Shown piece by piece: positions 28,588 to 64,000 of a stretch of DNA of 64,000 bases (the stretch's first letter is position 1; every line of letters begins with the position of its first letter). Origin of the DNA: Oscillospiraceae bacterium (GTDB lineage: Bacteria > Bacillota > Clostridia > Oscillospirales > Oscillospiraceae). The notes beneath the pieces are model-generated. The model did no database searches. It was not told the origin of the DNA and saw only the letters and a program-made list of their open reading frames with translations. The stretch lies in the NCBI GenBank assembly GCA_015067495.1, contig SVMI01000003.1, positions 116,971 to 180,970 of the forward strand. The letters are read 5' to 3'. Made by a program: the position numbers and the translations under genes.

Positions 28588-28662
28588 GGTACCGTAGCCA
28601 AGTGGTAAGGCCCCGGTCTGCAAAACCGTTATTCGCCAGTTCAAATCTGGCCGGTACCTCCA
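28588..28662 (+). tRNA. tRNA-Cys(GCA)
   Basis: Cloverleaf; cggtctGCAaaaccg; CCA encoded. Confidence 0.94.
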
Positions 28663-28700
28663 AAACAAAACGCACACCATAAGGTGTGCGTTTTGTTTTG
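28661..28700 (+). terminator. Terminator-like hairpin directly after tRNA-Cys
   Basis: aaaacaaaacgcacacc-ataa-ggtgtgcgttttgtttt. Confidence 0.85.
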
Positions 28701-28717
28701 GAGAAAAACAGGACGGA

Positions 28718-28834
28718 CAGATTTGAAGATCTGAATGCAACAGTCCGGGGGACTGTTGCCGCCGACGGCTGGACGGAGGCGAACCTTAATTTTTGCCTTC
28801 GGCAAAAATGCAAACAAATCTGGCCGGTACCTCC
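28718..28834 (+). repeat. tRNA-tail-associated structured repeat, copy A (inverted T-arm segment + about 80-bp core + duplicated tRNA-Cys 3' end)
   Basis: Core 28733-28814 nearly identical to minus-strand cores at 63562-63640 and 63730-63808; 20-bp caaatctggccggtacctcc repeated at 28642-28661 and 28815-28834. Confidence 0.9.
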
Positions 28835-28837
28835 GTG

Positions 28838-28873
28838 AAAAACGACAAGTTTCAAAAGAAACTTGTCGTTTTT
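28838..28873 (+). terminator. Terminator-like hairpin after the duplicated tRNA-Cys tail
   Basis: aaaaacgacaagtttc-aaaa-gaaacttgtcgttttt. Confidence 0.85.
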
Positions 28874-28876
28874 CAA

Positions 28877-29064
28877 TGATATCCGTTCCTTTCGGAACGG
28901 GTGATATATCTTTGATGTGATATCGCTCTTCGAGCGGTGATATATACCTTCGGCATATGAAGGAACGGATATTATATCGTGCTTGCGAAGCAAGTATATC
29001 ATGCGGCGAATGCCGTATATCATATTGCGTTAGTAATATATCATTCAGAATCCGAAGCAATAAT
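28877..29064. repeat. Array of variable mini-hairpins joined by near-constant GATATATC-type spacers
   Basis: tgatatCCGTTCctttcGGAACGGgtgatatatc...gatatCGCTCttcGAGCGgtgatatata...tatatcatGCGGCgaatGCCGTatatcat. Confidence 0.75.
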
Positions 29065-40959: not shown

Positions 40960-41211
40960 AAAAAACGCCTCAAGCAAAAGCTTGAGACGAGCAAAAACAT
41001 ACCCGCGGTACCACTCAAATTGCAACAGCTGTTGCCACCTTCAGACTCCAACAAGTCCTATCCCTTAACGCGGGCAAACGGGAGAAGCCTACTCATGACA
41101 CTTTTCAGTCCTCCGGCTCGGAAGTGATAGGTATGCGGAGCGAAAATTGCCGGTTTTCACCAACCACCGACTCTCTGAAAATTTCCTGCTCCAACCGTCT
41201 TCGTCAAAGCC
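40960..41211 (-). promoter_or_regulatory. T-box riboswitch, specifier ATC (Ile) at 41126-41128
   Basis: CAGAGAGTCGGTGGTTGGTGAAAACCGG; CCTATCACTTCCGAGCC specifier loop; GAGTGGTACCGCGGG (41001-41015); terminator CGTCTCAAGC/GCTTGAGGCG + T-run. Confidence 0.92.
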
Positions 41212-41229
41212 TTTTTCCATGTTGCAAAC

Positions 41230-41346: not shown

Positions 41347-41365
41347 GTCACATATATGTTTGAAA

Positions 41366-41615
41366 GACTTTGATGGAAATCTCGTCCTTTCCGGGACGCT
41401 TCAGAGAGCCGGCGGTTGGTGTGAGCCGGTGCGGAAGGGCTGGACGATCTGGTTCCGGAGTCGATCCTGTGAACGGCTGCTTAGTAATGGGATCCGTATT
41501 CCTGCGTTAAAGGATAGCGCTTGTTGGAGCGTGAAGAGATCTCCCGTCAGGGGGATAATCAGGGTGGTACCACGGATAGAAATTCGTCCCTGAGGCAGCT
41601 TGCCTCAGGGCTTTT
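41366..41615 (+). promoter_or_regulatory. T-box riboswitch, probable specifier CTG (Leu) at 41449-41451
   Basis: CAGAGAGCCGGCGGTTGGTGTGAGCCGG; GACGATCTGGTTCCGGAGTC specifier loop; AGGGTGGTACCACGG T-box (41561-41575); terminator CCTGAGGCA/TGCCTCAGG + T-run. Confidence 0.9.
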
Positions 41616-63510: not shown

Positions 63511-63539
63511 AAAGCCGGTGCCTATAAAGCACCGGCTCT
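63511..63539 (+). terminator. Rho-independent terminator
   Basis: agccggtgc-ctataaa-gcaccggct. Confidence 0.85.
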
Positions 63540-63706
63540 TGGCGGAGTGAGAGGGATTTGATTTGCATTTTGCCGTTGGCAAAACTAAGGTTCGCCTCCG
63601 TCAAGCCGTCGGCGGCAACAGTCCCCCGGACTGTTGCATTTAGAACGGTTCAAATCCCTTTTATCATCTTAACAAATAAAGACCGCCGAATGGCGGTCTT
63701 TATTCG
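63539..63706 (-). repeat. tRNA-tail-associated structured repeat, copy B (minus orientation), with tRNA-Ser-like 3' end
   Basis: 168-bp unit; minus strand ...GGGATTTGAAC-core-CAAATCCCTCTCACTCCGCCA; unit ends in aataaagaccgcc/ggcggtctttatt hairpin. Confidence 0.92.
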
Positions 63707-63874
63707 TTGGCGGAGTGAGAGGGATTTGATTTGCATTTTGCCGTTGGCAAAACTAAGGTTCGCCTCCGTCAAGCCGTCGGCGGCAACAGTCCCCCGGACT
63801 GTTGCATTTAGAACGGTTCAAATCCCTTTTATCATCTTAATAAATAAAGACCGCCGAATGGCGGTCTTTATTTG
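63707..63874 (-). repeat. tRNA-tail-associated structured repeat, copy C, tandem duplicate of copy B
   Basis: Same 168-bp unit with two C/T differences by eye. Confidence 0.92.
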
Positions 63875-64000
63875 TTGTGTAAGGACTATAAAAAAGATAT
63901 TTTCGGCCGTTTTGCGTATGACTTCGAACTCTCACAAAACATCTTGAGCTTTCTAATTTAGTGTGTGGTGGTGAGCCACCGTCAATCGATTAGTGGCTGT

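Follow-up and report, generated by a model that had tools for sequence, protein, structure and literature searches.

The tandem pair of 168-bp units located at the end of the analyzed stretch of DNA (64,000 nt, referred to as the window) belongs to a family of hairpin-rich repeats found just downstream of stable-RNA genes, in which one core is bordered by ends that match the adjacent gene. Comparison of the cores shows, at the level of sequence, that they have spread between tRNAs within genomes and have been refitted with target-matched ends. The pair had been noticed in an earlier inspection of the letters alone (the sequence-only reading), the finding of which was confirmed and proved to be much larger in extent than first noted.

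Organization of the units in the window

Both units lie on the minus strand, head to tail, at positions 63539–63706 (copy 1, distal) and 63707–63874 (copy 2, proximal), and are 99% identical. The two differences previously counted by eye are exact (63673 C/63841 T and 63705 C/63873 T), and the recent tandem duplication that had been proposed is supported. Read on the minus strand, each unit is composed of a terminator-like hairpin, a left arm (GGGATTTGAACC), a core, and a tail (CAAATCCCTCTCACTCCGCCA). This tail, described earlier as tRNA-Ser-like, does match a tRNA gene of the same genome: it is the 3' end of tRNA-Ser(GCT), from C56 of the T-loop through CCA (21/21 nt), and the next-best among the 36 tRNAs examined match it at 18/21 positions. 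Allowing up to three mismatches, these 21 nt recur nowhere else in the window beyond the two units (chance expectation, 0.01). The hairpin AATAAAGACCGCC/GGCGGTCTTTATT reported beside the tail was found as well, and is intrinsic-terminator-like. Three points were absent from the sequence-only reading, namely the inverted copy of the tail (left arm) present in each unit, the identity of the shared hairpin as a terminator, and the occurrence of copies at tmRNA and even at one 5S rRNA gene.

In copy 1, the direct copy of the tRNA-Ser(GCT) tail occupies positions 63540–63560 (21/21 identity), and the core comprises hairpins P4 (TTTTGCC...GGCAAAA; 63568–63584), P3 (CGCC-GA-CG-loop-CG-GA-GGCG; 63593–63614), with tandem G.A mismatches common to many copies and covariation in 4/4 pairs, and P2 (GCAACAGTCCGGGGGACTGTTGC; 63615–63637), with 97.5% of cells paired and two-sided changes in 8/10 pairs. 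The left arm, an inverted copy of the tRNA-Ser T-arm, is found at 63647–63658, and an intrinsic-terminator-like hairpin (inverted repeat I4; 63671–63708) separates the tail of the proximal copy from the left arm of the distal one. The tail (63708–63728) and the left arm (63815–63826) of copy 2 were located by sequence, and another terminator-like hairpin (inverted repeat I3; 63839–63876) is present upstream of this copy. All of these features are on the minus strand.

The statement that no intact tRNA is found nearby holds within the window, but the parental tRNA-Ser(GCT) is present in the assembly (C21:10728–10819), where it is located 119 bp from a contig end and oriented toward that end. 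The end of the window is itself the end of contig C6 (180970), 126 bp past the Ser array. Since both the gene and the array are near contig ends, the absence of tRNA-Ser beside the array is probably due to a gap in the assembly. A search for an empty site at this locus by way of nifS gave no useful ortholog because the neighbors of nifS are not conserved. A dispersed motif, GGGCTACAAAAAAGATATTTTCGGC...TTCGAACTCT, is found at 63884–63950 of the window, on C21 after tRNA-Ser(GCT), and in L011, L110, L111, L114 and L426; adjoining tRNAs and units, it may represent another repeat family.

The window contains another copy, located after tRNA-Cys(GCA) (28588–28662, plus strand, as are the other features of this locus). 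The palindromic terminator of the gene (CCAAAACAAAACGCACACC...GGTGTGCGTTTTGTTTTGG; 28663–28701) is followed by a left arm (CAGATTTGAA; 28718–28727), which is an inverted copy of the tRNA-Cys T-arm, a core with P2, P3 and P4 (28728–28814), a direct copy identical to the 3' tail of tRNA-Cys (CAAATCTGGCCGGTACCTCC; 28815–28834), and a second terminator-like hairpin (28839–28875). The core is 95% identical to the Ser core over 64 nt and 88% identical over its whole length, and carries the tail of tRNA-Cys.

A hairpin array spaced by GATATATC/TATATCAT motifs occupies positions 28874–29040 and partially matches the Rfam family Gut-1 (RF01706). Such arrays were also observed in L011, L135, L412 and L415, near tRNA/tmRNA genes and units, and a dispersed repeat may include Gut-1. 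Elsewhere in the window, two divergent T-box leaders are located back to back (40980–41216, minus strand, and 41361–41594, plus strand).

Distribution of the family

Using BLAST and a covariance model (R1) built from 11 copies, at least 17 copies were identified in the 2-Mb genome of the window (G000). The proposal of a single core traveling with various tRNA tails within one genome was thus borne out well beyond the two window loci: besides tRNA-Cys and the Ser(GCT) pair, copies of the core adjoin tRNAs Ser(CGA), Gly(GCC), Ala(CGC), Pro(TGG), Pro(CGG), Lys(TTT), Val(GAC, in an array), Val(CAC) and Gln(CTG), as well as tmRNA. Altered cores were found at Asp(GTC), at Leu(TAG), where the core is partly replaced, and at Ser(GGA), where a replaced core was detected by BLAST. 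Where the gene is present, the units of G000 are always in sense orientation, 13–56 nt downstream. Repeatedly, the stable-RNA gene is followed by a terminator, the left arm, the core (P2, P3 and often P4), the direct tail copy and a terminator, with a unit size of about 100–180 bp; from the gene to its tail copy, this arrangement is kept throughout G000.

Across the genus, copies were found in 105 of 121 genomes, including 31 of the 35 high-quality ones (four are unit-free), with a maximum of 29 per genome; they adjoin tRNAs for most amino acids and tmRNA. Among the 30 tmRNA loci fetched, ten have a copy directly after ssrA. R1 matched none of the 11 genomes searched that belong to other families within the order. 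Most of the named contigs bearing the P2 hairpin are MAGs of Oscillospiraceae obtained from ruminant guts, and a like architecture with different cores was observed in other Clostridia (L105, L119, L135, L140, L153, L156 and L170). In L160 (1–520), the 3' tail and terminator of a 5S rRNA gene recur after it as three tandem copies, with only the P2 hairpin in between.

Phage and plasmid collections contained no match to the element. In the single viral contig L221, a 3' fragment of tRNA-Thr has a unit directly after it, and the contig end appears to be the border of a prophage in tRNA-Thr; a 16-mer scan of viral contigs was too short for specificity and was left out of the evidence. Exact matches to the hairpin GCAACAGTCCGGTGGACTGTTGC are present in unrelated bacteria as well, namely Salipiger (L142, 5326–5349) and the Actinomycetes YP4.bin77 (L137/L144/L157/L165/L173/L181). 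These are apparently other repeats, once inside a transposase-like gene, with no tRNA nearby.

Matching of the ends and spread of the cores

The correspondence between the ends and the adjacent gene was evaluated in the 95 copies with a gene directly upstream (gene–unit distance, 13–56 nt). The distal tail is identical to the gene over 9 nt in 74 of these copies, whereas shuffling of the genes gives 5.9 on average and at most 15. The left arm pairs with the tail of its own gene at 8.38 of nine positions, while shuffling gives 7.16, with a maximum of 7.44. Where the gene and the distal tail are discordant, the left arm mostly follows the gene (set of 121 copies); L171 and L454 are exceptions, in which a change is common to the left arm and the distal tail and is missing from the gene. 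Pairing of the left arm with the distal tail (P1) was set aside as independent covariation, given that both arms track the tRNA.

In all tRNA cases inspected, the unit boundary reads GTTCRA, which corresponds to the T-loop. Fixed terminal inverted repeats common to all copies are absent, the ends varying by gene and matching the host, and no fixed promoter was recognized between the terminator and the left arm. In 18 of 89 cases, the similarity between the terminators on either side of the unit exceeds the 99% null; thus, the duplicated segment can include both the tail and the terminator. In the tmRNA of L424 (1501–1848), the T-arm is altered on both strands (ACGGG/CCCGT vs. AGGGG/CCCCT), and the distal tail of the unit retains the usual tmRNA sequence. 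This element may preserve an older tmRNA tail.

The core identities group modestly by genome (difference of 0.025 in mean identity; one of 2000 permutations as high) and not by T-arm, for which 894 of 2000 permutations reach as high a value. As core similarity follows the genome and not the tRNA, the cores would have spread within genomes and been refitted with matching ends. In G000, the tmRNA and Val(CAC) cores are 92% identical, the Cys and Ser(GCT) cores 88% and the Cys and Gly cores 87%, with differing ends. L146 carries a Tyr-type left arm/half joined to a tRNA-Pro tail, and in L078 a whole tRNA-Pro with its unit has been duplicated around cargo.

Within the core, 97% of the cells of P2 and P3 are paired, two-sided changes occur in 12 of 14 pairs, and the tandem G.A mismatches of P3 are often kept. 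For the whole structure, two-sided changes were found in 21 of 25 pairs, a value reached in none of 500 shuffles. G.U makes up 2.3% of the core pairs, compared with 10.4% in tRNAs, 10.7% in tmRNAs and 11% in shuffled cores. The low G.U share and the near-perfect palindromes hint at selection or correction at the DNA level; the hint is a weak one, since the terminators, which act as RNA, share a low value (1.8%). The core has no tRNA likeness and its conservation extends across copies located beside different tRNAs, and a tRNA pseudogene or a simple tRNA duplication was therefore rejected. An Rfam scan of the whole window gave no match at gathering thresholds; at the repeat, only sub-threshold, chance-level hits to terminator-like hairpins were obtained, and a known RNA was rejected as well. 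No paper describing the core hairpin sequences or such elements was found in the open-access literature.

Hairpin sites alternate with small genes at several loci (the Val array of G000, L121, L110, L135 and L454). In the Val array, units are separated by a gene for an HTH protein and a 67-aa Cys-rich ORF, which are duplicated; L121 (Tyr) has three units with two segments of hypothetical genes in between; L135 (Met) carries a DMP19-family gene and L454 (Tyr) a PhdYefM/ParE toxin-antitoxin pair. The cargo extends from the CCA end of one tail to the terminator of the next unit, and most units have none. The Cys-rich 67-aa gene, the one cargo family followed, was found in 24 of 121 genomes and, if a tRNA or unit is near, this is mostly tRNA-Val; free exchange of cargo between tRNAs is thus unsupported.

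Origin of the repeat and relation to known systems

Based on these observations, we propose, with middling confidence, that the repeat is an array of non-autonomous, hairpin-rich mobile elements which settle just downstream of stable-RNA genes, and we infer that they propagate at the DNA level. The exchange would start at the conserved T-loop (GTTCRA, beside C56), the tail-terminator segment of the target would be duplicated, and the left arm would be copied back from it. One conceivable route is recombination of a folded single-stranded hairpin, by analogy with the attC sites of integrons. The other is template switching at the palindromic terminator: the nascent strand would fold back and copy the tail, producing the left arm, its shared TCGAAC end would find the left arm of another unit, the core would be copied, and synthesis would return to the target at CRA. 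The window pair would then be a later tandem duplication of one Ser(GCT) copy. Either route could account for the ends, although neither is proved. No dedicated recombinase tracking the element was found: tyrosine recombinases, searched at the level of the PF00589 family, are encoded in all of the 41 genus genomes tested, unit-free ones included, and the genome of the window (17 copies) contains no match to Y1 transposases (PF01797).

A stronger version, in which mobile DNA fits itself to its target, the core inserting beside any gene with a tRNA-type T-loop and copying its 3' tail in both orientations, is put forward tentatively and is somewhat doubtful. If it is true, target-matched ends can arise without a target-specific recombinase, and tRNA 3' ends would be platforms for the accumulation of small genes, e.g., toxin-antitoxin pairs.

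The main rival of a DNA-level element is a structured non-coding RNA transcribed via read-through of the tRNA terminator, which we regard as rather unlikely. In such an RNA, the left arm and the distal tail would form P1 around a three- or four-way junction and the 3' end would mimic tRNA; selection would keep the arms matched, and spread would be a mere by-product of gene conversion. Helix covariation fits RNA too, and that of P2 and P3 is strong. The conserved G.A mismatches of P3, the junction nucleotides, which constitute a fixed set, and the common compensatory changes of both arms away from the tRNA in L171 and L454 are also in line with an RNA. On the other hand, no Rfam model matched in the window at gathering thresholds, G.U pairs are very few, the cores of different species have no link to tRNA identity, and copies are missing at many orthologous tmRNA loci and in the four unit-free high-quality genomes. 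Moreover, the left arm mostly tracks the tRNA where tRNA and distal tail disagree, and the interval from the terminator to the left arm has no recognizable fixed promoter.

An integron-like cassette system residing on tRNA genes, with either the tail-terminator-left arm or the left arm-core-tail segment serving as an attC-like folded site that captures cargo, seems decidedly improbable. Arrays in which units alternate with small genes (the Val array of G000, L121, L454 and L135) are consistent with it, as are the imperfect inverted repeat, unpaired bulge and apical hairpin, which resemble those of attC (compare PMC2727003). Against this, the T-loop sequence GTTCRA differs from the attC core GTTRRRY, the search for a dedicated integrase identified none, the cargo family tested is mostly near tRNA-Val, and most units are cargo-free. 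Least probable of all, and very much so, are satellites of tRNA-targeting tyrosine integrases, each unit being a minimal attP/attR pair mobilized in trans with a T-loop crossover: the direct repeat from the T-loop to CCA is as expected for T-loop integrases such as that of Ms6 and prophages apparently do use these genes (L221), but in a single genome one core family has more than ten unrelated tails, the terminator is likewise duplicated without moving along with the core, this reading offers no explanation for the inverted copy, and the tmRNA T-stem of L424 is changed on both strands.

One core family occurs at tmRNA and at the tRNAs of most amino acids, with the ends matched in each case; such matching may arise through copy-back synthesis, hairpin recombination or selection on an RNA. 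The units are assembly-breaking repeats beside essential RNA genes and sit where small genes accumulate; hence, they are relevant to the genome plasticity of abundant gut bacteria. They also supply copies of tRNA tails, which prophage integrases might use.

Several known systems share individual traits with the units. REP/BIME sequences mobilized by RAYT (Y1) and MITEs are likewise small, non-coding, dispersed hairpin repeats present in many copies, but the units have a strict position and orientation after stable-RNA genes and target-dependent ends; the former were rejected for want of a Y1 transposase in G000, and the latter because the units have no fixed ends. The structured non-coding RNAs of gut Firmicutes in Rfam (e.g., Gut-1, RF01706) resemble the units in being intergenic, covarying hairpin junctions, whereas no Rfam model matches the units, the arms of which derive from the neighboring tRNA and the occurrence of which is patchy. 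Integron cassettes and their attC sites are also imperfect palindromes folding as hairpins, and form arrays with small cargo, including toxin-antitoxin genes. Unlike attC sites, the units are anchored on tRNA/tmRNA genes, have arms that match the host gene and a conserved multi-hairpin core, and are mostly empty; the attC R boxes (GTTRRRY/RYYYAAC) are absent from them, and no IntI was identified at the level of the PF00589 search.

An element that makes use of a tRNA gene normally targets a single tRNA via a single integrase, and no established explanation for ends matched to many targets was found in the open-access literature searched. A further parallel is provided by T-loop integrative elements and prophages such as mycobacteriophage Ms6, in which a direct repeat starts at the T-loop and the tRNA stays whole; the attP of Ms6 can be adapted to alternative tRNA-Ala T-loops (PMC1762012). 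At their far border, the units do repeat the tRNA 3' end directly (74/95 identical over 9 nt), but the 168-bp unit contains no gene and, thus, no integrase of its own. Lacking an integrase and having ends that vary by target, the units fit poorly with a plain tRNA-integrating island, which was ruled out by these features together with the many targets and the inverted copy. Compared with other elements at tRNA 3' ends, the units are distinguished by their size of 100–180 bp, by a repeat that often includes the terminator, by the inverted copy of the tail, and by one core serving many targets.
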